Assembly (NCBI GenBank): GCA_016207415.1
Contig: JACQPT010000176.1
Span: forward strand, 1 to 32,911
DNA from: Ignavibacteriales bacterium
GTDB lineage: Bacteria > Bacteroidota > Ignavibacteria > UBA10030
Reading direction: 5' to 3'
Length of the DNA: 32,911 bases
In this document: positions 350-32,317 of the stretch, in pieces
Position numbering within the stretch: the first letter of the stretch is position 1
How the letters are laid out: every line of letters begins with the position of its first letter
Notes under the pieces: model-generated
What the model saw: only the letters and a program-made list of their open reading frames with translations
Databases searched by the model: none
Told to the model about the DNA's origin: nothing
Program-made: the position numbers and the translations under genes

Positions 350-2701
350 TTACCCTTTTTCTCCAAGCCAGATGCCAAAGTCCTCGCTTTCCCCGGGTTC
401 CACAGGTTCGACTTCAACCTCCTCCCGGCTCATCTTTTTTGTCACAACGGTGATCCCCTTTGGAGAGAACCCAAAAAGGTCGTCGAGCGAAAAGATTCTG
501 GAGAAGTCTTCGGGCTGGAAGAACTGCCTGAACCTGTTCGAATACTCTTCCAGGCGTGCGAGGTAATACTCCGTGTTCTCGTCGGGCAAGTTCGGATCCC
601 ATTCGTCTGCTATGCGACAGTTGTCGGTAACCTTCACGTCTGCTTGCGTCCCGGTGACGTAGTACGAGATGCGGTCTCCCGCCTTAAAATAGAATCCTGC
701 TTTTTTTGCGGCTTCGTATGCTGCCGTAGGATGCCGGCGGCCTGCTTCCACAGATTTACTGTACGAATCCAGGTCTTCGTGGACAGTTTCCGTCCTGCAG
801 AAATCGGCGACATCCCATTCGTGTTTTTTTATCTGCGTATAGCATGAGGCGTAGGTGTGATGGAGTTGGGAAACATCCTCCGTGAGCAGACATTCAATGC
901 AGCGGCGAATATATCGTCGTGCGAAGCGTTCGAGAGACCTGGAAATGAGCGAGCTTCCCTTGATTACCAGTTCGTTACGATAATCCAGAAGAGCGTAGTT
1001 TTTCATCTTGTAGCTCAGCATTTTCTTCGACCTCGATGCAAGCACGAGGTTAATTCCGTCGGGCAACGTTGTTGAGATACGGTCAACAAAAGCTTCCTCC
1101 TGACTCTTCCCCCGGACGTTGTCGGGCGGTAGGAAGAAAATTCCGTCCGTATCAACTTCGATCGGCTCGGCGTTAAAAAGCTCCATTTGACGGATGACGG
1201 AACGGAGAATGCTCTGTCCCGTTGTCGTTACGGCGTCGGCCTGCTGATAATCGTTGAACAAACCCCTGCCGTATGCCAAGTAGCCGTAAAAGGAATTACC
1301 CAGAATCTTCAGCGCCGATTGCAGAGCATCGTATTTGGACCGCGCCGATTTTGACCTGCTGCGGCGCATTTTTGATTTTACTTCGAGACGCATGGCGGTG
1401 ATCTCTCGCAACAGGGGCACGAAAACGTCGAGGTTGTCGACGCGGGGCTTCAGGTTGTTGGAAAGGATGATGGAAGGATACAGCGATTCGGCATCTGCCT
1501 GCAGCACGTTTTCCAGTACTCCGCTCACAAAAATCTCGGTATAACCTCCGACCGTCTGCGCCCCCTTTTGTGGCTGGGGAATGGAGTGTTTCTGTCGCAG
1601 GTATTCGCGGACCATCAGTGATTCCAATCGGGCGGCAGACCCCAACCCTGTCAGCGTCGCGTAGTTAAAAGGACATATCTGTGAAAGATAAAAATTACTG
1701 GGCGAAAGAAGGGCGCTGACCTGTTCAACGACGTGAACATTCTCCTGTGAATGTTGCAGGACAATTTCGGGAGACTGCTCCCACATAGAGGAAATCTTTG
1801 ACCTTGGAACGGCGGGTCCCCTCGCTATTCCAAAATGTTCCGCAAGCTGGGGAAGTTCGTAATTCTCGAGAGAACGCTTGGTGTAATCGTAAGCACGAAT
1901 CAACTGGGATGTGTCCACGAAATGCCGGCCAGGGCACTCGTAGATCGTGAATTCGCTCTCGGGAGAAAACCGCCTCTGATAAGACCGCACGGACATTCCT
2001 TCCCGCCCAAGACAGGGGTCGACGGAATAAAGTTCACAACGCCGCAAGAAGTACGGAAGCAGAAAACCGAACAGTTCATGGCCTTCGATAATATCCGGAT
2101 CGCGCTCCCGAACGGATGCAATAAACGACTCGAGTATGCTCTTCTCTTCCAGTTTTCTGCCGTCGAGTTGACGCGTCCATCCTGTGCTATCCGCCATCGA
2201 AATGAGAATGATTTGTCCTTGATTCTTCGATTCAGTGTTACGACGTTCACGGGCAGAAACCTGGATGTCAACCTGCAGTCGACCGAGGTCTGTGAACGAG
2301 AGTCCTTTGAAGGATGTTTTCCCCGATTGGATAAGATATTGATACACTGGGTCTGGGCGCAGGAGGAGGGAATCGACATCCGCGTAGCTTGAGGCGAGGG
2401 GTCTACGGTTCTTGTTGTATTCTCTCAGAATAAAATTCACGGCTTCCCACATTTCCCCCCAACGTTTGAAGACGGCCAAAAATTTGAAAAAGTGATTGCC
2501 GGAGAGTTCTTTGAGCCAGTGGAAAGTGGGGAAACCCTGAAGAAGGAAAGCATCCGAAAGGAAAAAGAAAGGGAAGAACTCGGCTTCTTCGGCGACAACG
2601 GTGCTTCCATGTCGCTTATAAATCCTTACGGCAGAATCATTGAGCTGATGGACAGCGACGATGTGTTCATCGGCATCGTGGCCGGAGAGAAGCGAGTTCA
2701 T
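350..2701 (-). CDS. Family-B DNA polymerase with degenerate exonuclease domain
   Basis: A 783-residue replicative/repair-type family-B polymerase. The polymerase site looks intact: motif A (D403 in DAESLYPSI), motif B (KILGNSFYG, about 465-473) and motif C (DTD, 517-519). The N-terminal 3'-5' exonuclease domain is recognisable, but its metal-binding residues appear replaced. Exo I reads DIQ instead of DIE (145-147). Exo II reads GHELFGFL where GHNxFxFD is usual (206-214). Exo III reads HSQEN where YxxxD is expected (317-321). I chose the ATG at 2701 because upstream in-frame codons lie inside the slipin gene and lack family similarity; AGGGG abuts this ATG, so start spacing is poor. It sits 28 bases after the slipin stop, so co-transcription is possible. 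Likely an accessory, translesion or repair polymerase rather than the main replicase (inference). Confidence 0.9.
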   Translation of the reverse strand: MNSLLSGHDADEHIVAVHQLNDSAVRIYKRHGSTVVAEEAEFFPFFFLSDAFLLQGFPTFHWLKELSGNHFFKFLAVFKRWGEMWEAVNFILREYNKNRRPLASSYADVDSLLLRPDPVYQYLIQSGKTSFKGLSFTDLGRLQVDIQVSARERRNTESKNQGQIILISMADSTGWTRQLDGRKLEEKSILESFIASVRERDPDIIEGHELFGFLLPYFLRRCELYSVDPCLGREGMSVRSYQRRFSPESEFTIYECPGRHFVDTSQLIRAYDYTKRSLENYELPQLAEHFGIARGPAVPRSKISSMWEQSPEIVLQHSQENVHVVEQVSALLSPSNFYLSQICPFNYATLTGLGSAARLESLMVREYLRQKHSIPQPQKGAQTVGGYTEIFVSGVLENVLQADAESLYPSIILSNNLKPRVDNLDVFVPLLREITAMRLEVKSKMRRSRSKSARSKYDALQSALKILGNSFYGYLAYGRGLFNDYQQADAVTTTGQSILRSVIRQMELFNAEPIEVDTDGIFFLPPDNVRGKSQEEAFVDRISTTLPDGINLVLASRSKKMLSYKMKNYALLDYRNELVIKGSSLISRSLERFARRYIRRCIECLLTEDVSQLHHTYASCYTQIKKHEWDVADFCRTETVHEDLDSYSKSVEAGRRHPTAAYEAAKKAGFYFKAGDRISYYVTGTQADVKVTDNCRIADEWDPNLPDENTEYYLARLEEYSNRFRQFFQPEDFSRIFSLDDLFGFSPKGITVVTKKMSREEVEVEPVEPGESEDFGIWLGEKG

Positions 2702-2729
2702 CCCCTGTGGGGACGGCCGACGGGATCTG

Positions 2730-3491
2730 TCATCTCTTTTTCTCAAGTTCGAGGAATGGTCTGAGCAAGTCGATGGGGACAGGGAAGATCGTCGTTGAAT
2801 TCTTCTCTGTGGCAATCTCTCTCAGCGTTTGGAGATAACGCAACGTCAAGGCGCTTGGCTGACTGGCCAATATTTGGGCCGCCTCGGACAGTTTTTGAGC
2901 TGCCTGGAATTCACCTTCGGCAGAAATGACCTTCGACCGACGCTCGCGCTCAGCCTCCGCCTGTTTCGCCATTGCACGCTGCATTTCCTGGGGCAGGTCA
3001 ATTTGCTTGACCTCAACGTTCGAGACTTTGATTCCCCATGGCGCCGTGTGGCTGTCGATGATTTGTTGGAGCTTCAGGTTGATTTTTTCCCGCTGTGAGA
3101 GCAAATCATCGAGTTCGGATTGACCCAGCACACTTCGCAGTGTTGTCTGGGACAGTTGTGACGTGGCAAACAAGTAGTTTTCAACGTCCACGATTGCCTT
3201 CTGAGGTTCCATCACGCGGAAATAGACCACGGCGTTGACTTTTACCGAAACGTTGTCTTGCGTGATGATGTCCTGAGGAGGAACATCCATGACGACGGTG
3301 CGCAAACTCACTTTTACCATCTTATCGATAAAAGGCCACAACCAGATGATTCCGGGCCCTTTAACTCCGAGTAATCGGCCCAGCCGAAATATTACGCCCC
3401 TCTCGTACTCCCGGAGGATGCGGATCGCGTTGGCAGCAATGATCAGGAGAAAAACGAAGAGGACAAAAAATGCCGGGGAGATCATATTCAT
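2730..3491 (-). CDS. Slipin / stomatin-like SPFH-domain membrane protein
   Basis: 253 residues: an N-terminal membrane anchor (about 5-24), then the SPFH/PHB core beginning [13 protein letters not shown]. The core includes the typical stretches [19 protein letters not shown] and [13 protein letters not shown] charged, alanine-rich coiled coil (about 172-208) and a C-terminal hydrophobic patch follow. Slipins form large membrane-bound oligomers that organise microdomains. The partner NfeD-type protease is encoded immediately upstream (53-base gap) in the same direction. This is the classical pairing in which, in Pyrococcus horikoshii (PH1510/PH1511), the protease cleaves the stomatin homologue. 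The start is supported by AAAGGAG 8 bases before the ATG. An HflK/HflC assignment is less likely because the gene is single and next to nfeD. Confidence 0.93.
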
Positions 3492-4923: not shown

Positions 4924-5011
<88 letters not shown>

Positions 5012-5042: not shown

Positions 5043-5420
5043 ATGTCCGAAACAATTCTTGTCGCCGAAGATCAACAGCATATTCGCGCCTTGATCGAAT
5101 ACAAGCTGAAAAACAGCGGCTATAGTGTCGTTGCCGTTGAAGACGGCGTTGCGGCGCTGACAAAAGCGCGTGAACTTGTCCCAACACTCATTCTTCTGGA
5201 CGTGATGATGCCCCTCATGACAGGCTTCGAGGTGCTGTCGGCACTGAAACAGGATCAGAAAACGAAAGACATTCCTATTCTTCTTGTGACTGCCCAAAGC
5301 AAGGAAGAAGAAGTGCTCAAAGGATTGGAACTGGGCGCCGAGGATTATATCACCAAGCCGTTCAGTCCGAATGAGCTGGCCGCACGGGTCAAGAAAGTTC
5401 TGCTCAGACACGGCAAATAA
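5043..5420 (+). CDS. Single-domain (CheY-like) response regulator
   Basis: 125 residues forming only a receiver domain: acidic pocket E9/D10, phospho-acceptor Asp53 (LILLDVMMP), Thr83 and Lys105 (TKPF). There is no output domain, so it must act by protein-protein contact. It is the first gene of a four-gene run with a TPR/YaiO outer-membrane protein, a HEAT protein and a glycosyltransferase. Phosphorylation may therefore switch polysaccharide export or synthesis (inference from context). No kinase is encoded nearby. No Shine-Dalgarno is visible; the start codon sits inside a short CCAACATCCAATGTCC repeat-like stretch 32 bases after the tRNA. Confidence 0.93.
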   Translation: MSETILVAEDQQHIRALIEYKLKNSGYSVVAVEDGVAALTKARELVPTLILLDVMMPLMTGFEVLSALKQDQKTKDIPILLVTAQSKEEEVLKGLELGAEDYITKPFSPNELAARVKKVLLRHGK

Positions 5421-5426
5421 TGACGA

Positions 5427-6776
5427 ATGCGGACTTGTAAATCCTCCCGGGTCATTGCCGCCCTCCTGATTACCGTTTTTATTCCCCTCCGGTACACAAA
5501 CGGCCAAACTCCGACAACACCAGAAAATCCCGATAAAGTGCTGAGCAGGGCAATTGAGGAGCATCGGGCGGGCAATTTTTCGGAAGCGAAGTCACTGTGC
5601 CGGACAATCCTTGATAAATACCCTCACTACATCGACGCCCGGAACATCTACGCACGCGTTCTGTCTTTTGAGTCTCATCTTCAAGAATCTCTGGTTCAGT
5701 ATGATTCCGCTCTGGTGTACGACGAGACGAACGAAGATGCGAGGTTTGGGAAGGCACAAGTGCTGGCATGGATGACCAAATTCCCGGAGTCGCTTTCGAT
5801 CCTGCGGCCGCTCGCACAGGGAAAACCTCAGAATACCGTCTACCTGACGGAATTGGCAAAAGTACAGTTCTGGTTCAATGATTTCTCCGCTGCATACGAT
5901 AATTTTGTAAAGGCGTACAGCCTTGACACAACCTCAGTCGAAGTGATGCGCTGGGCGGCCCGGGCTGCCCTCACCGGAGAGAGGAAAGATGACGCAGCCG
6001 TATGGTACCGCCGAGTCCTCCGTGAGATCCCCCATGACCCGGAGGCGCAGTTTGAAACGACGAGGATTTGGTACAGTTCCGAAAACGAGATACAAGTTCA
6101 ATACACGAACGAATCTTTCGGACCGCCGCTCGATCAACATCATGGTGTTCTGAGCCTGGAGTATTATCACGAGTTGTCGAAGAACTGGAAACCTTATGCC
6201 CGCCTCGCCAGAGTTCAAAAATTTCGCGTCACAGAAAGTCAGGTAGGAGCAGGCGTGTACGGCCTCTTGTCTTACGGCAATGGTATGTTCGCACAACTCC
6301 TGCTTTCTCCCTCCGCCACAGTTATTCCGAGGTTCGATATCTCGGGTGAGTTATCCGAGGTTCTCTTCTCGGGCGTTGAGGCGATCCTCGGGATGCGTTT
6401 TCTTATCTTTGCCAAAACTCAGGTGCTTTTGTTCTCGCCGGGTGCCTTGGCATATGTATCGGAGAGGGCATGGATATCGGGCAAGTTCTACGTTGCGCGA
6501 ACATCAAACGGGCAGAGTTCCTTGGCTTTTGTTGCCTCCGGGGTTTATAGACCAACCGAGAATTTCACCATACGGTTGACCGGTTTTGGCGGAGACGAAT
6601 CATTTCGCGCAACAACGATTGATGAAATAGTAGCTTTCCAATCAAGGGGCTTCCTGCTGGGGATGAAGACACGTTTGACAAAGAATTTCGGCATAGACGG
6701 ATTTTATCAAAGCACATCAAGAAGTTCACAAGCCTCTTCAAATCTTCTTGGATTGGCGCTCTTGGCGTATTTCTAG
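5427..6776 (+). CDS. TPR-containing YaiO-family outer-membrane beta-barrel protein
   Basis: 449 residues: signal peptide (about 1-26), then four or so TPR-like helical repeats (about 35-210; e.g. HRAGNFSEAKSLCRTIL, FGKAQVLAWMTKFPESLSIL). The C-terminal half (about 220-449) has the alternating pattern of beta strands and ends in an aromatic residue (LALLAYF), typical of outer-membrane barrels. This matches the YaiO/PgaA idea of periplasmic TPRs attached to an export pore. E. coli yaiO lies beside the glycosyltransferase gene yaiP; here a comparable glycosyltransferase lies two genes downstream. The gene starts 6 bases after the response-regulator stop. Probably a polysaccharide export porin; transport is inferred, not shown. 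Confidence 0.8.
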   Translation: MRTCKSSRVIAALLITVFIPLRYTNGQTPTTPENPDKVLSRAIEEHRAGNFSEAKSLCRTILDKYPHYIDARNIYARVLSFESHLQESLVQYDSALVYDETNEDARFGKAQVLAWMTKFPESLSILRPLAQGKPQNTVYLTELAKVQFWFNDFSAAYDNFVKAYSLDTTSVEVMRWAARAALTGERKDDAAVWYRRVLREIPHDPEAQFETTRIWYSSENEIQVQYTNESFGPPLDQHHGVLSLEYYHELSKNWKPYARLARVQKFRVTESQVGAGVYGLLSYGNGMFAQLLLSPSATVIPRFDISGELSEVLFSGVEAILGMRFLIFAKTQVLLFSPGALAYVSERAWISGKFYVARTSNGQSSLAFVASGVYRPTENFTIRLTGFGGDESFRATTIDEIVAFQSRGFLLGMKTRLTKNFGIDGFYQSTSRSSQASSNLLGLALLAYF

Positions 6777-6782
6777 ATTTCT

Positions 6783-7919
6783 ATGAGTTTTCAGATTTTC
6801 CTTATTCTTGCCCTGGCCGCGACAGCGACCTTTCTTGTCATTGTCATTTCCATTGGCCTTGTTGTTCATAAGGCCCTCCACTCCAAAACGATTCAGCGCC
6901 AGCAAAAACTCTATACTGAATACTCCCAACAGGTTGCGGAGATCATTCTCCAAGATTTGCCGACGCTTCCCGAAGATTCAACCGCAAGCGGGAGGTTTGA
7001 CCAGTATGAGATTTTGCTCGCTCCGTTGAAAGATCAGCTGGAAAAGATGACGAAAGGAAGGAGATCGCTTCACCGGAAGGCCGTCAAGCTTGCACTGATT
7101 GATTTCGCGAGAGACGTCGCAGGAGAGACCTCCGACAGACTTGTGTATTTCAGCTATTCGTTGGGCCTGGTGGATGATGAGATCAAATTACTCCAAAGCA
7201 AAAACTGGTGGGATCGTGCTCAGGCGGCCCATGACCTTGGAGTGCTGAGGGCCCGACGGGCCGTCACGCCGCTGGCCAAGGGATTGGAGGACGAGCATCC
7301 GGATGTGCGTATCCAGGCGATGCAATCACTGGTCATCCTTGGAGGTGTTCATTCACTCGAAACAATTCTCATGAAGAGTAAAAACCTCTCACGATGGACG
7401 GCCATTGAGTTATCCATCATCGTCATGAGGTTTAAGGAAGAAGCGGTACCCTTTCTCATTGATTCGCTCCAATCGACCGACCAGTCAATTGTCCTCTTCT
7501 GCATTGAAATGCTGGCGGAGATCGGGTTTGTTTCTGCGGTGGAGCCGCTGCGTACAATGGCACGCGATTACCCGAACACCGTCATCCGGGCCAAGGCGAT
7601 TGAAGCTCTTGGCCGACTCGGCGATGAAAGAGCTGAAGCGATGCTGCTGGAGCTCCTCAGAAATCCTCTGCCCACTCTCAGATTCAAAGCGATCGAGGCA
7701 GTAGGAAGAATCGGGATTCGAAGCGCGCTTTCGGCTCTGGAAACTAGGCTCAAGGATGGCGTGCTGCAGGAAAAGATATTGGCCGCACGATCGATTGCTG
7801 CCGCTGGTCCAGATGGGATCTCGCTGCTGACATCTCTGAAAAACGCCGAGAACGAAATTCTTCGTGGTGTCGCCCAGCAGGTGCTTGAGGAGTCTCGTGT
7901 GGAACCATCCGTGGCATAA
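6783..7919 (+). CDS. Membrane-anchored HEAT-repeat protein
   Basis: 378 residues: one N-terminal transmembrane helix (about 4-29), a charged helical linker, then at least five HEAT/PBS-lyase-like repeats from about residue 135. Examples are WDRAQAAHDLGVLRARRAVTPLAKGL, IRAKAIEALGRLGDERAEAMLLELL and LRFKAIEAVGRIGIRSALSALETRL. Such solenoids are scaffolds without catalysis. The gene lies 6 bases after the barrel gene and 2 bases before the glycosyltransferase, so it is almost certainly translated with them. A role bridging the synthase in the inner membrane to the periplasmic TPRs or to the receiver protein is plausible but inferred. It lacks the Glu-rich lyase-type active-site features that would suggest bilin chemistry. 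Confidence 0.85.
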   Translation: MSFQIFLILALAATATFLVIVISIGLVVHKALHSKTIQRQQKLYTEYSQQVAEIILQDLPTLPEDSTASGRFDQYEILLAPLKDQLEKMTKGRRSLHRKAVKLALIDFARDVAGETSDRLVYFSYSLGLVDDEIKLLQSKNWWDRAQAAHDLGVLRARRAVTPLAKGLEDEHPDVRIQAMQSLVILGGVHSLETILMKSKNLSRWTAIELSIIVMRFKEEAVPFLIDSLQSTDQSIVLFCIEMLAEIGFVSAVEPLRTMARDYPNTVIRAKAIEALGRLGDERAEAMLLELLRNPLPTLRFKAIEAVGRIGIRSALSALETRLKDGVLQEKILAARSIAAAGPDGISLLTSLKNAENEILRGVAQQVLEESRVEPSVA

Positions 7920-7921
7920 CG

Positions 7922-9346
7922 ATGATGGCCCTCGTCGAAATATTGATTGAAATCTATTTCTACGGCGTCATAGCCTATTTCATCGTAGTGAACATGTCCT
8001 ACACCATACTTTTGTTACTGTCGTACAGGGAGATCCTGTATTACATGAGGCACAATTCCTTCAGCGACTACCGCATCACAGTTCAGTCCGAGCTGACCCC
8101 GCCGATTTCGATTCTGGCCCCGGCATATAACGAAGAGGCGACGGTCGTAGAAAGCGTTCGAAGTCTGCTGAAACTCAACTATGGGAAGTATGAAGTTATC
8201 GTCATCAACGACGGGTCGAAGGATGCGACACTCGATAGACTCATACGGGAATTTTCGCTCCTTCCTTCCAACCAGGTCTACGAACCGGTGTTGGAGACAA
8301 AACCCGTCCGGGATATTTACAAATCGCATAAACCCGCCAATCGCAACTTGGTCGTCGTTGATAAGGAAAACGGGGGTAAAGCGGACGCGCTCAATGCCGG
8401 CATCAATGTCGCGCAATTCGAGAACGTTTGTGCGATCGACGCGGATTCGCTGCTCGAAGACGATGCCCTGCAAAAAGTCATGAAGCCATTCCTCGAAGAT
8501 GACCATGTCGTCGCTTCCGGGGGCATTGTGCGCATTGCCAACGGCTGTGAAGTGGTCAACGGCAGAGTTACCAAAGTCTCTCTTTCCAGGAAGTTCCTGC
8601 CCATTTTTCAGGTCGTGGAATATTTTCGTGCGTTTCTTTCCGGCCGGATGGCATGGCAGGGCCTCAACGGGCTTCTCATTATCTCGGGCGCTTTCGGCAT
8701 GTTCAGAAGGGACGTGGTTATCGAGGCCGGGGGTTACAACCACGAAACGGTGGGAGAAGACATGGAGTTGGTGGCGCGTATCCACCGGACGAAGCTCGAG
8801 AAGAAAGAACCCTATCGGGTTGTTTTTGTTCCCGACCCCGTGTGCTGGACTGAAGCGCCAGAATCGCTGAGAATCCTCTCACGTCAACGCAATCGATGGC
8901 ATCGCGGATTATTGGATACACTGCTTATCCATCGGAAGATGTTGTTTAACAAAAACTACGGAATCGTTGGCATGGCGGCCGTTCCGTATTTCTTTTTCAT
9001 TGAGCTGCTGGGTCCGGTCTTTGAGTTCCTGGGCTACATTTCCATGATCGCTATGCTTGCGCTTGGAATCCTGAATGTCAACATGACGATTCTCTTTTTT
9101 ATCGTGGCGCTGTTTTACGGTGTGATGTTTTCCGTGGGGGCAGTGTTACTCGAAGAGATTTCCTTCCAGCGTTATCCAAGGGCGCGCGATCTGGCAATGC
9201 TGCTTTCTTTTGGCGTGCTCGAAAACTTTGGCTATCGACAGATTACGCTGTGGTGGCGCATGAAAGCGTTCTATGATTATTTTGTGAAGGGAGTAAAGAC
9301 ATGGGGTCCAATGCAGCGTACGGGATTTTCCCGCGGAGCAACATAA
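7922..9346 (+). CDS. Processive family-2 glycosyltransferase (PgaC/YaiP-like polysaccharide synthase)
   Basis: 474 residues. N-terminal membrane segment (about 8-36), then a GT-A catalytic domain: the ISILAPAYNEE start (62-72), a DG motif at 97-98 (VINDGSKD), DAD (173-175) for metal/nucleotide-sugar binding, the acceptor-side GED (278-280), and QRNRW (322-326), the QxxRW signature of processive synthases. At least two strong hydrophobic segments follow (about 345-410). Enzymes of this type build and extrude beta-linked polysaccharides such as poly-N-acetylglucosamine or cellulose-like chains; the sugar here cannot be told. There is no PilZ domain, so regulation may rest on the CheY-like protein upstream. 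It is the last gene of the cassette; its stop codon lies inside a terminator hairpin. Confidence 0.9.
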   Translation: MMALVEILIEIYFYGVIAYFIVVNMSYTILLLLSYREILYYMRHNSFSDYRITVQSELTPPISILAPAYNEEATVVESVRSLLKLNYGKYEVIVINDGSKDATLDRLIREFSLLPSNQVYEPVLETKPVRDIYKSHKPANRNLVVVDKENGGKADALNAGINVAQFENVCAIDADSLLEDDALQKVMKPFLEDDHVVASGGIVRIANGCEVVNGRVTKVSLSRKFLPIFQVVEYFRAFLSGRMAWQGLNGLLIISGAFGMFRRDVVIEAGGYNHETVGEDMELVARIHRTKLEKKEPYRVVFVPDPVCWTEAPESLRILSRQRNRWHRGLLDTLLIHRKMLFNKNYGIVGMAAVPYFFFIELLGPVFEFLGYISMIAMLALGILNVNMTILFFIVALFYGVMFSVGAVLLEEISFQRYPRARDLAMLLSFGVLENFGYRQITLWWRMKAFYDYFVKGVKTWGPMQRTGFSRGAT

Positions 9347-9413: not shown

Positions 9414-9500
9414 GGAAGGGTGCGAGAGTGGTTGAATCGGCCGGTCTCGAAAACCGGAATAGCCTCCGGGCTATCGAGGGTTCGAATCCCTCCCCTTCCG
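9414..9500 (+). tRNA. tRNA-Ser (anticodon CGA)
   Basis: Acceptor GGAAGGG (9414-9420) pairs with CCCTTCC (9493-9499), discriminator G9500. Anticodon stem CCGGT/ACCGG with loop CTCGAAA gives CGA (reads UCG). It has a long class-II variable arm (around TAGCCTCCGGGCTA), and the T arm is GAGGG/CCCTC around TTCGAAT. CCA is not encoded. Confidence 0.97.
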
Positions 9501-9588
9501 CGACGCATTTTCCCGACGTTCTCCATCTTTGAGCCATTCCCTCAGGCATTGATTCCGTTCCTTCGCACTCGTGATTCTGAAACGTTCA

Positions 9589-9617
9589 TTGACATTCCTG
9601 CCATTATTCGATATCTT
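9589..9617 (+). promoter_or_regulatory. Strong promoter for the PerR-like regulator
   Basis: TTGACA (9589-9594), 17-base spacer, TATCTT (9612-9617), about 30 bases before the start codon. No canonical TTATAAT-type PerR palindrome is visible around it, so autoregulation cannot be argued from sequence. Confidence 0.65.
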
Positions 9618-9647
9618 TTTATTGTGGTTTCACTCAAAGGAGAAAAA

Positions 9648-10052
9648 ATGAACATGGAACAACTTCAAGGAACCAAAAGAAGCAAACAACGAGAACGCAT
9701 TTTTGTCACATTGCGGCGGACGCGGTCGCACCCGACGGCGGAATGGATTTACGAAAGAGTGCGGCATGACCTCCCGAAGATTTCTCTGGGCACAGTATAC
9801 CGGAATCTTAACGTCCTGAAAAGCCAGGGCAAGATTCGGGAATTGGATTTTGGCGAAGGTACGCGGCGGTATGACGCCTTTACGCATGACCACTATCATT
9901 TCATTTGCGAGGAATGCGGAACTGTCAAAGACCTGGAAGTCCCGACGCAAACAGACATCAACGAGCGCGTGAAGTCGATTGTGCAAGGAGTGGTCCATTC
10001 TCATCGACTGGATTATTTCGGTGTGTGCTCGGACTGTCTGAATAAAGTCTAA
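9648..10052 (+). CDS. Fur-family metalloregulator, PerR-like peroxide sensor
   Basis: 134 residues. Winged-helix DNA-binding half (about 10-75; recognition segment ISLGTVYRNLNVL), then the dimerisation half with a structural zinc site CxxC/CxxC (Cys87, Cys90, Cys127, Cys130). A histidine-rich regulatory site THDHYH (79-84) follows the wing. Asp103 seems to align with the Asp (104 in Bacillus subtilis PerR) that distinguishes peroxide-sensing PerR from Fur, and SHRLDYFGVC also resembles PerR. Two peroxiredoxin genes directly downstream support a peroxide-response role. The start is the ATG at 9648 behind AAAGGAG; the longer in-frame extension runs back through the tRNA and is not real. Confidence 0.88.
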   Translation: MNMEQLQGTKRSKQRERIFVTLRRTRSHPTAEWIYERVRHDLPKISLGTVYRNLNVLKSQGKIRELDFGEGTRRYDAFTHDHYHFICEECGTVKDLEVPTQTDINERVKSIVQGVVHSHRLDYFGVCSDCLNKV

Positions 10053-10184
10053 ACCCGCCTCTTTCCGTCAATAGTGAATTTCTTGAGACGGTCTCCCGTC
10101 GGGGAATCGTTTTCTCCATGAAAGTGTTGGAAGAGAGATTCCCGCGTCGAAATGTTTACCGTTTTTCATAATCGGAGGAATGAC

Positions 10185-10658
10185 ATGCCAGTATCTGTGG
10201 GTCAAAAAGCTCCTGACTTCACCTTGCCCGACACTGAAAAGAACCAGCGGTCGCTTTCTGAATTCAGCGGAAAGAAAACCGCGCTGGCATTCTTTCCCGG
10301 AGCTTTCACCGGGACGTGCACAAAAGAAATGTGTACCTTTCGGGATTCGATGTCGAAACTCAACGAGTTGAACGCGCACGTGGTGGCCATCAGCGTGGAT
10401 TCTCCGTTTGCCAACAAAGCATTCGCGGTACAGAACAATCTTCAATTCCCGATTCTTTCCGATTACACGAAGTCTGTGGTCAGGCAGTACGGCGGTGTTC
10501 ATGACGATTTCGCTGGGTTGAAGGGTTATGTCGCTTCGAAACGATCGGTGTTCGTCCTCGACAAGGAAGGCGTCGTCCGTTACTCATGGATTTCAGAGAA
10601 TCCGGGCGTCGAGCCGCCCTACGACGAGGTGACCAAGGCAATCTCATCAATACCATGA
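10185..10658 (+). CDS. Peroxiredoxin (AhpE/BCP-like thiol peroxidase)
   Basis: 157 residues with the thioredoxin-like peroxiredoxin fold. The active-site motif PGAFTGTC (38-45; PxxxTxxC) places the peroxidatic cysteine at 45, and a second cysteine at 50 could serve as resolving residue in a 1-Cys/atypical 2-Cys mechanism. It reduces hydrogen peroxide and organic hydroperoxides in the cytoplasm. The start at 10185 is set by GGAGG upstream and by the conserved opening VGQKAPDFTLPD. It lies 132 bases after perR and ends at a strong terminator, so it is a separate or short unit before the second peroxiredoxin. Confidence 0.92.
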   Translation: MPVSVGQKAPDFTLPDTEKNQRSLSEFSGKKTALAFFPGAFTGTCTKEMCTFRDSMSKLNELNAHVVAISVDSPFANKAFAVQNNLQFPILSDYTKSVVRQYGGVHDDFAGLKGYVASKRSVFVLDKEGVVRYSWISENPGVEPPYDEVTKAISSIP

Positions 10659-10662
10659 ACAG

Positions 10663-10696
10663 GGCCGGGCTGATGTGCGAGCCCGGCCTCTTTCTT
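10663..10696 (+). terminator. Intrinsic terminator between the two peroxiredoxin genes
   Basis: Nine-base GC-rich stem GGCCGGGCT (10663-10671) / AGCCCGGCC (10680-10688) with an 8-base loop, followed by the T-rich TCTTTCTT. It begins 5 bases after the peroxiredoxin stop. Confidence 0.75.
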
Positions 10697-10734
10697 CCTG
10701 CCTGCCTCATATTCCAGGAATAGGAGCCACTACG

Positions 10735-11187
10735 ATGTTGAACGTTGGAGACACTGCTCCGCAATTCAAACTTCCCTCGGGGAACGGCCGAACCCTCAGT
10801 CTCAAAGACTTCAAAGGGAAAAAGGTTGTCCTCTACTTCTACCCAAAAGATGACACTCCTGGTTGTACGAGAGAAGCCTGCTCCTTTCAGGAGAATCATT
10901 CTCAACTTCTTAGGAAAGGCGCTGTGGTGATTGGCGTGAGCGCCGATAGCACTGGTGCTCACGAAAAATTCGCCAAAAAGTACGGCCTGAGTTTCCCGTT
11001 GCTGAGCGATGAATCGAAAGAAGTCATCAAAGCATACGACGTCTGGAAAGAGAAATCTTTCATGGGAAGGAAGTACATGGGGATTGAACGCACAACGTTC
11101 GTCATAAACGAAAAAGGGAGGATCCAAACCATTTTTCGCAAAGTGAAAGTTGACGGGCATACGAAAGAAATACTGAATGTGCTATGA
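10735..11187 (+). CDS. bcp: Thioredoxin-dependent peroxiredoxin, BCP/PrxQ type
   Basis: 150 residues. The motif DDTPGCTREAC places the peroxidatic cysteine at 44 and the resolving cysteine at 49, the five-residue spacing typical of BCP/PrxQ. The N-terminus (VGDTAPQFKLPSGNG) and the ending that carries GRIQTIF and VKVDGHTKEIL are also typical. It reduces peroxides using thioredoxin. The start at 10735 follows AGGAATAGGAG. It is separated from the preceding peroxiredoxin by a terminator, so it probably has its own promoter, which I could not place. Together with perR and the first peroxiredoxin it forms a peroxide-defence block. Confidence 0.94.
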   Translation: MLNVGDTAPQFKLPSGNGRTLSLKDFKGKKVVLYFYPKDDTPGCTREACSFQENHSQLLRKGAVVIGVSADSTGAHEKFAKKYGLSFPLLSDESKEVIKAYDVWKEKSFMGRKYMGIERTTFVINEKGRIQTIFRKVKVDGHTKEILNVL

Positions 11188-31276: not shown

Positions 31277-32317
31277 ATGAAATCTCTTCTCCTGGTTTTC
31301 CTGAGCTGCGCCCAGCTTCTTTCATCGCAGGATGTCGACTCCGTTGCCCGCGTGACATTCCTTGCGTTTGGCGATGTCAATCTTGGCCGAACCGTTGGTC
31401 AGCGCATCCTGAGGGGAGATGTTGATTATCCTTTCGAAAAAATTAGGGATACTCTTGGCGCAGCAGATTTTGTCTTTGTCAACCTTGAAAGCCAGCTGAG
31501 CGACCAGGGTGGCCAGACCGAAGACCCGAAATCGAACGTTATTTTTTGCGGACCTCCTGTGGCCGCGGGTTCACTTCGCAGGTCGCATATCAATGTGGTC
31601 TCGACGGCAAACAACCATGCCTTTGACTATGGCTTGAAAGGGCTCATCGAGACAATATCGTTCTTGCGGTCGGAGGGAATTCAATTCGCCGGAACTTCTG
31701 CCGATTCCACGGGGAATTTCCCTACCGCCATAGTCGAAAAACATGGGATCCGGATTGGCATTGCTGCATATACGCAGTTTGTCAACGGCAGTGCTCAATG
31801 GGAGGGCCACATTTCCATCTTCGATACTCAGCGAGTAAAGTTCGAGATTGACGATCTGAAGAAAAAGACGGATTTTGTCGTGGCGAGTTATCACGGCGGC
31901 AAGGAGTATGCTGACGTGCCGGATGCCCGCACGCAGTCGGACATGCGCTCCCTGATCGATGCGGGTGCCGACATCGTCTTCGGGCATCATGCTCACGTGC
32001 CGCAAGGGATTGAAGAGTATCGGCACAAGCTCATTTTCTCTTCGTTGGGCAATTTTGTCTTTCTCCAATCGCCGTATTGGAGCCGTCGTTCCTACGGTGT
32101 GGAGTTGCTTTTTGAACGACTGATGGAAAAGACGAGTCTCGCGCGTGTCCGGCTTGTACCTGTTCGCGCCGGCTATCAGCCTTCCCACGATCTTAACAGC
32201 GATGAGCTGACGAAACTCATGCGGAGAGTCCAATCCCTCTCGAACGTTCAAATTGAAACCAGGGGCTCCATGTTTCTTGTGCGGGTTCCATCATTCACCA
32301 GTCGGGAAGAACAGTGA
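31277..32317 (+). CDS. CapA-family metallophosphatase-like protein
   Basis: 346 residues. Signal peptide (about 1-18), then the PGA_cap/CapA calcineurin-like domain with motifs in order: FLAFGDVNLGR, FVNLESQLS, STANNHAFDYG, SYHGGKEY and FGHHAHVPQGIE. These supply the Asp, Asn and His residues expected for a binuclear metal site. CapA proteins are linked to poly-gamma-glutamate synthesis or export, but capB and capC are absent, and many homologues are of unknown function. The ORF overlaps the BamD-like gene by 4 bases (GTGA). It is exported, probably to the periplasm. Confidence 0.88.
   Translation: MKSLLLVFLSCAQLLSSQDVDSVARVTFLAFGDVNLGRTVGQRILRGDVDYPFEKIRDTLGAADFVFVNLESQLSDQGGQTEDPKSNVIFCGPPVAAGSLRRSHINVVSTANNHAFDYGLKGLIETISFLRSEGIQFAGTSADSTGNFPTAIVEKHGIRIGIAAYTQFVNGSAQWEGHISIFDTQRVKFEIDDLKKKTDFVVASYHGGKEYADVPDARTQSDMRSLIDAGADIVFGHHAHVPQGIEEYRHKLIFSSLGNFVFLQSPYWSRRSYGVELLFERLMEKTSLARVRLVPVRAGYQPSHDLNSDELTKLMRRVQSLSNVQIETRGSMFLVRVPSFTSREEQ

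Follow-up and report, generated by a model that had tools for sequence, protein, structure and literature searches.

What is made by four genes packed almost without gaps on a contig of an Ignavibacteriales bacterium, and do these genes belong together? We addressed this question in a 32,911-nt stretch of DNA (assembly GCA_016207415.1, contig JACQPT010000176.1, positions 1 to 32,911; hereafter, "the window"), from a host assembly of 2.79 Mb in 253 contigs that is rated 89% complete. Its forward strand carries, in order, open reading frames (ORFs) for a stand-alone, CheY-like receiver (REC; 5043..5420, 125 aa), a protein with tetratricopeptide repeats (TPR) and a YaiO-type outer-membrane barrel (5427..6776, 449 aa), a HEAT-repeat protein (6783..7919, 378 aa), and a family-2 glycosyltransferase (GT; 7922..9346, 474 aa), separated by 6, 6, and 2 nt. 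A preliminary description of this DNA had reported four genes with gaps of 2–6 bases and had assigned them these same domains; the ORFs and gaps were confirmed, and each domain call exceeded its Pfam cut-off. The cluster probably encodes a compact synthase-dependent polysaccharide secretion system with a control module composed of the receiver and the HEAT protein. This reading is built on the observed gene content, synteny across phyla, co-occurrence of the genes, an intact receiver site, and the predicted folds of the synthase and exporter.

The preliminary description had named two outcomes that would speak against a functional unit, namely homologues without synteny and HEAT and receiver genes that are random neighbours. 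Neither was found. We scanned the Genome Taxonomy Database (GTDB) with the GT alignment, unconditioned on the presence of HEAT, and analyzed the 80 top-ranked loci out of at least 581; the counts were made on all reading frames, since the gene caller missed the GT in 9 of the 80 rows, at GC-rich loci. A HEAT gene lies directly upstream of the GT gene in 76 of these 80 loci. Among the other four, one (L059) ends at a contig end, one (L126) contains a receiver but matches HEAT only weakly, and two (L068 and L118) show no HEAT match. Chance adjacency of HEAT was rejected by comparison with other PgaC-like family-2 (GT2) enzymes: 30 PgaC_IcaA-like loci were taken from 41 relatives of the window as the best match per genome of a longer list, two belonging to the present subfamily were left out, and the other 28 had no HEAT or receiver match within 1.5 kb on each side, contig permitting (0/28 versus 76/80 together with 14/14 plasmid matches; Fisher's test, 6e−22). 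Adjacency of the receiver was examined in 72 informative loci, after exclusion of the 4 without HEAT and 4 cut by a contig edge. A same-strand REC adjoins HEAT in 54/72 loci and lies within 2.5 kb in 65/72, versus 1/71 on the far side of the GT, which served as the control by which random adjacency was rejected (Fisher's test, 2e−22). L070 and L071 fall outside the 2.5-kb rule, yet in each of them a receiver scoring 142 bits lies 54 nt away from where HEAT matches. The arrangement is thus more than chance and recurs across phyla: REC-HEAT-GT was seen in Bacteroidota/Ignavibacteria, Pseudomonadota, Bacillota, Actinomycetota, Bdellovibrionota, and haloarchaea, and HEAT-GT alone in a Deinococcus plasmid. 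Organism labels of metagenome-assembled genomes (MAGs) are used as deposited and may be wrong; the records in the GTDB scan that are not labelled as MAGs include Solirubrobacter, Bdellovibrio, Flavisolibacter, Hydrotalea, Clostridium, Methylobacter, and Rossellomorea.

In plasmid records, HEAT lies directly upstream in 14/14 GT matches at 1e−60 (12 by record annotation and 2 by hidden Markov model), and a response regulator lies upstream in 9/14. The full order REC-YaiO-HEAT-GT occurs in Methylobacter (L128), in a gammaproteobacterial MAG (L106), and on three Mesorhizobium plasmids that are close relatives of one another. Haloarchaeal plasmids (L164, L170, and L171) carry receiver-HEAT-GT with no YaiO annotated, as expected because these hosts have no outer membrane. 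On the Halosolutus plasmid the cluster is followed by a sugar-phosphate nucleotidyltransferase gene and glmS, the latter a hint that the substrate may be a hexosamine. On a Legionella plasmid the GT is only 30% identical, and the order is still YaiO-HEAT-GT, with nucleotide-sugar genes alongside. The GT on a Devosia plasmid (L172) is split across several reading frames, and this copy looks broken or misread.

The same linkage was observed among close relatives of the window. A search of 120 relatives with the HEAT query gave matches in 49 genomes at 1e−5, many of them generic HEAT proteins, and we therefore counted only near-full-length orthologues (aligned from residue 9 of the query or earlier to residue 351 or later), of which there were 26, window included. 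GT adjoins HEAT in all 26 loci, and a receiver lies upstream in 24; the other two (L012 and L026) reach contig ends. The GT itself was detected at 1e−60 in 31/120 genomes, comprising these 26, three with no listed HEAT match (G022, G031, and G077), and two with a partial one (G080 and G095). A close receiver orthologue (E 1e−45) is present in 15/120 relatives, all of which are HEAT- and GT-positive. When the HEAT search was widened to the phylum, 12/296 genomes matched at 1e−12, a result partly blurred by generic HEAT proteins; it reached six genomes of family f30, in which HEAT adjoins GT in five loci and not in L054.

The exporter is linked to the synthase less by position than by presence in the genome. 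Among 41 relatives, YaiO was found in 15/16 GT-positive and 0/25 GT-negative genomes, even when unlinked (Fisher's test, 2.5e−10, phylogeny uncorrected). Because a full-length YaiO profile also caught TPR proteins, a barrel-only profile was built, with Pfam used for key cases; in L100 and L120, for example, TPRs are present and no YaiO Pfam match was found. Of the 26 orthologue loci, 6 (L001, L002, L004, L012, L013, and L019) have YaiO immediately before HEAT, whereas in G003, G004, and G013 it is on another contig, although no contig end is within 8 kb of HEAT. In four of the five f5 loci fetched at length, a gene of 382–398 codons lies between the receiver and HEAT, and the one scanned had no Pfam match. 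YaiO can therefore sit elsewhere in the genome, and what is conserved is a HEAT-GT core that REC usually accompanies.

The cassette is bounded by two tRNA genes that are absent from the preliminary description: tRNA-Ser(gga) upstream (4924–5011, forward strand) and tRNA-Ser(cga) downstream (9414–9501, forward strand), with a divergent NfeD gene and a Fur/PerR-like gene beyond them on the upstream and downstream sides, respectively. Of the 15 f1 loci that were fetched (L031–L045), 9 have both tRNA-Ser genes, 4 have one, and 2 have none, and several of these stretches end at contig ends. We then searched for NfeD in 12 GT-negative relatives; it was present in 10, and nine upstream stretches were fetched. 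In five of these (L153, L155, L157, L158, and L160), the two tRNA-Ser genes are both present and just 11 to 968 nt apart, in varying orientation and, in L160, in a different order. Of the other four, L154 reaches a contig end after one tRNA-Ser gene, and L156, L159, and L161 show none. Since the tRNA-Ser genes lie this close together in five GT-negative relatives, we infer that the cassette was gained or lost as a block at these sites.

The receiver matched Pfam Response_reg (PF00072) with 103.5 bits (cut-off, 30.2), and its E9, D10, phospho-acceptor D53, T83, and K105 are invariant in an alignment of 20 sequences (the window and 19 relatives); with this intact acidic pair/Asp/Thr/Lys site it is a response-regulator receiver, and Pfam showed no output domain of its own. 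The HEAT protein scored 93.4 bits against HEAT_2 (PF13646; cut-off, 27.7) in three stretches and matches both designed alphaRep and natural HEAT proteins, which places it among the HEAT-repeat proteins. It begins with a strongly hydrophobic segment (residues 5–23) followed by basic residues, in keeping with the membrane anchor that the preliminary description had proposed; this combination suggests that the solenoid is cytoplasmic. A second hydrophobic stretch (residues 235–253) lies within the repeats.

How might these two proteins act on the synthase? A distant, possibly hybrid, kinase would phosphorylate the receiver, which would then dock on the HEAT solenoid and switch the synthase on or off. 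HEAT, anchored by its N-terminal helix, would always partner the GT on the cytoplasmic side and would fill the place taken in other systems by PgaD, PilZ, or MshEN modules. In its broadest form, we tentatively propose that REC-HEAT-GT is a widespread class of synthases gated by phospho-receiver docking on a HEAT subunit, unlike the cyclic di-GMP (c-di-GMP) switches of PilZ, MshEN, and PgaD, to which diderms can add a TPR/YaiO exporter; this generalization is about as likely to fail as to hold, and perhaps slightly more so. The receiver-to-HEAT step is the weakest link of this mechanism, and it is there that the most serious alternative applies. HEAT and GT may form a pair for assembly or stability, and the receiver may be a local phosphorelay element that acts on another target (a kinase, a GGDEF protein, or transcription) and not on HEAT. 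We regard this alternative as unlikely. Among the 54 HEAT-adjacent RECs, 51 retain the phospho-acceptor Asp. Of the 54, 18 are in ORFs of 175 codons or more, and in other phyla such proteins can have the architectures HPt-REC-GGDEF-REC (L131 and L089), REC-GGDEF-REC (L104), or REC-REC (L123 and L107), with a canonical GGDEF-type motif in 6/18. Hpt genes also adjoin the cluster in Mesorhizobium and Devosia plasmids. These relay-like contexts, together with the loci in which HEAT-GT persists without REC, favor the alternative. Against it, the receiver of the window is stand-alone, most adjacent RECs (36 of 54) are encoded by ORFs shorter than 175 codons, and the adjacency is one-sided. Moreover, 16 of the 18 longer proteins end with the scored REC, beyond which just 0–4 residues follow, and the other two (L066 and L119) have a second REC at the C-terminus. 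In L078, a HPt-REC-GGDEF-REC protein is encoded one gene further upstream, and a stand-alone receiver lies between it and HEAT.

Several observations weigh against gating through the receiver and HEAT, or against the unity of the cluster. HEAT-GT can exist without an adjacent REC: no same-strand REC is near 5 of the 72 informative GTDB loci (L067, L076, L112, L113, and L115) or near 5/14 plasmid matches, and three extended f30 loci (L138–L140) are HEAT-GT with no match to a receiver. The REC gene closest to the cluster of L064 or L067 is encoded on the other strand, and that of L067 is divergent and next door. Conversely, a lone REC, 45% identical and without HEAT or GT, lies between the tRNA-Ser genes of a cassette-less genome (G009; L158:1626–1991), possibly as a remnant of the cassette. 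The HEAT-less loci L068 and L118 count on the same side, as do the exporter exceptions: no YaiO was found in the GT-positive genome G014 (81% complete), and in 10 of 16 f1 loci inspected HEAT directly follows the receiver with no YaiO between them. Because GGDEF is fused to REC in other phyla, c-di-GMP may be the signal there. Finally, the proposed REC-HEAT and HEAT-GT contacts are read from gene order alone. The trees of the partners are similar (r of 0.89 for GT-HEAT, 0.66 for GT-REC, and 0.56 for HEAT-REC; n = 54), but these mirror-tree values are weak evidence, since they are uncorrected for shared ancestry, as are the Fisher tests.

The preferred reading, a secretion system under receiver-HEAT control, also depends on what kind of enzyme the GT is. 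The protein scored 87.7 bits against Pfam Glyco_tranf_2_3 (cut-off, 27), has hydrophobic helices at both termini, and carries a DxD motif (D173/D175) and a QRxRW motif (Q322-R323-x-R325-W326) that are invariant in an alignment of 45 sequences (the window and 44 relatives). Its structural model, built on these 45 sequences (pLDDT, 92.6), matched hyaluronan synthases over nearly the whole length in the 13 top-ranked solved folds, and BcsA was also listed. The Chlorella virus hyaluronan synthase (7sp7), for example, matched with an E-value of 1.1e−15 and a TMq of 0.68 over 471 columns, although its identity to the GT is only 17%; hyaluronan synthase is not known to need a HEAT partner. DxD, QxxRW, membrane helices, and synthase fold together place the GT in the processive GT2 synthase class (hyaluronan, chitin, and cellulose synthases), as a processive-type, hyaluronan-synthase-like enzyme for which polymerization is predicted. 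It would polymerize a nucleotide sugar, most likely UDP-N-acetylglucosamine or a derivative, and pass the chain across the membrane by way of its own helices.

The exporter likewise fits a secretion system. It passed the cut-offs of both Pfam YaiO (PF19413; 52.8 bits versus 23.9) and TIGR04390 (61.1 versus 32), which assigns it to the YaiO outer-membrane barrel family, and that of TPR_19 (51.3 versus 25). Its hydrophobic N-terminus resembles a signal peptide and is followed by the TPR domain and a barrel with F as the final residue. The AlphaFold model (28 sequences; pLDDT, 89.8) combines a superhelix of TPRs with 14 strands, as counted from the listed elements, and the top solved match in Foldseek was BcsC (TMq, 0.39), with OmpG and the polysaccharide secretin 4y25, which we take to be PgaA, also listed. 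This protein would conduct the chain across the outer membrane. The fold of the GT and its co-occurrence with an outer-membrane exporter thus support the earlier proposal of an exopolysaccharide system.

Could the cluster then be a divergent member of a known system, such as Pga/Ica for poly-N-acetylglucosamine (PNAG) or Nfr, with swapped accessory parts? The preliminary description had compared it with PgaA/PgaC, and the likeness holds only for the general kind: PgaABCD/IcaADBC also combines a GT2 synthase with a TPR-barrel exporter, the best NCBIfam match of the GT is PgaC_IcaA (TIGR03937), the barrel protein resembles BcsC and a polysaccharide secretin, and a haloarchaeal copy has glmS beside it. 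However, the GT scored 148.5 bits, below the TIGR03937 cut-off of 422.3, and shares 26% identity over 355 columns with E. coli PgaC, while the exporter reached 22.9 bits against the PgaA profile (cut-off, 366.65). When a profile of the GT subfamily was used, E. coli PgaC scored only 61 and 33 bits versus 331 to 898 for intact HEAT-linked relatives, which indicates a distinct subfamily within the PgaC-like GT2 enzymes. No PgaB/IcaB deacetylase was found among the 30 window proteins scanned (the four cluster genes and 26 others), as the preliminary description had stated for the cluster, and no PgaD was seen; at E. coli pgaABCD, no HEAT or REC gene is annotated. NfrB-NfrA of E. coli is likewise a regulated GT2 synthase with an outer-membrane partner, as described in PMC8669469, whereas the present cluster has a separate HEAT protein and receiver, and no Pfam match to MshEN was found on the GT at E 0.01. 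Membership in Pga/Ica or Nfr is therefore improbable. Still less probable is a non-processive GT that decorates a surface glycan, lipid, or protein with HEAT recruiting the substrate, since, although the GT2 family includes many single-addition enzymes, the invariant motifs, the hyaluronan synthase folds, and the co-occurring polysaccharide-type exporter all argue against it.

Two further systems resemble the cluster in part. In cellulose synthesis (Bcs), BcsC and BcsA recur among the structural matches of the exporter and GT, but the GT has no PilZ domain in Pfam and scored 53.7 bits against the CelA profile (cut-off, 699.1), and the barrel has 14 strands; by these measures the GT is not a PilZ-bearing CelA-type synthase. 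The E. coli yaiP-yaiX-yaiO locus, to which the preliminary description had also pointed, shares a GT and a YaiO barrel in one neighborhood; there, the acyltransferase pseudogene yaiX, broken by IS2, separates yaiP from yaiO, and the 10-kb stretch has no annotated HEAT or receiver gene. The earlier remark that the system lacks PilZ or another c-di-GMP receptor stands for the relatives of the window, in that PilZ was found in 0/41 genomes, and needs qualification in other phyla, where REC is fused to GGDEF. GGDEF was found in 40/41 of these genomes, each with one to three copies, and the genome of the window has one. The absence of PilZ, together with the few GGDEF copies, makes a PilZ-type c-di-GMP switch on the synthase unlikely in these relatives.

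Variants of the GT provide further indications about the polymer. The GT is fused to a sulfatase-superfamily domain in L080:7884–11480, L068:1677–4739, and L095:8001–11438, sulfatase-superfamily proteins are encoded downstream in L090 and L093, and one neighbor is annotated as lipoteichoic acid (LTA) synthase; these suggest that the polymer may carry phospho-group decoration. Separately, a contig end of G001 (G001:C5:17537–18094, reverse strand; L031:11141–11701) carries part of the GT once more, in inverted orientation and with 98% identity to the GT of the window; this copy is either an assembly artefact or an inverted repeat.

Elsewhere in the window, positions 350–2815 (reverse strand) encode a B-family (Pol II-like) DNA polymerase of 821 aa. 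Directly after the second tRNA-Ser gene, the Fur/PerR-like regulator gene is followed by two tandem peroxiredoxin genes (9585–11187), which are likely a peroxide-stress block. A CapA-type PGA_cap protein, from another family tied to surface polymers, is encoded at 31277–32317.

Synthase-dependent secretion is known as a kind, but the control module and breadth of the present system appear undescribed. We found no description of a HEAT-GT-receiver polysaccharide system in the titles and abstract openings of the open-licence PubMed Central literature; a word search of the main text of an operon survey (PMC7112194) returned neither HEAT nor YaiO, and the word HEAT is absent from the searched text on NfrB-NfrA (PMC8669469), in which NfrB is described as a c-di-GMP-switched synthase. 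Where two other papers did mention HEAT, the context was unrelated. The system ranges from Ignavibacteria to haloarchaea, with Mesorhizobium, Methylobacter, Bdellovibrio, Flavobacterium, and Bacilli among its cultured hosts. Among the synthase-dependent polysaccharides that are well studied, c-di-GMP is the usual switch. If the proposed reading is correct, matrix control would also have a two-component route, and there would be an explanation for many neighboring genes that now carry no annotation beyond HEAT repeat protein, response regulator, and glycosyltransferase family 2.

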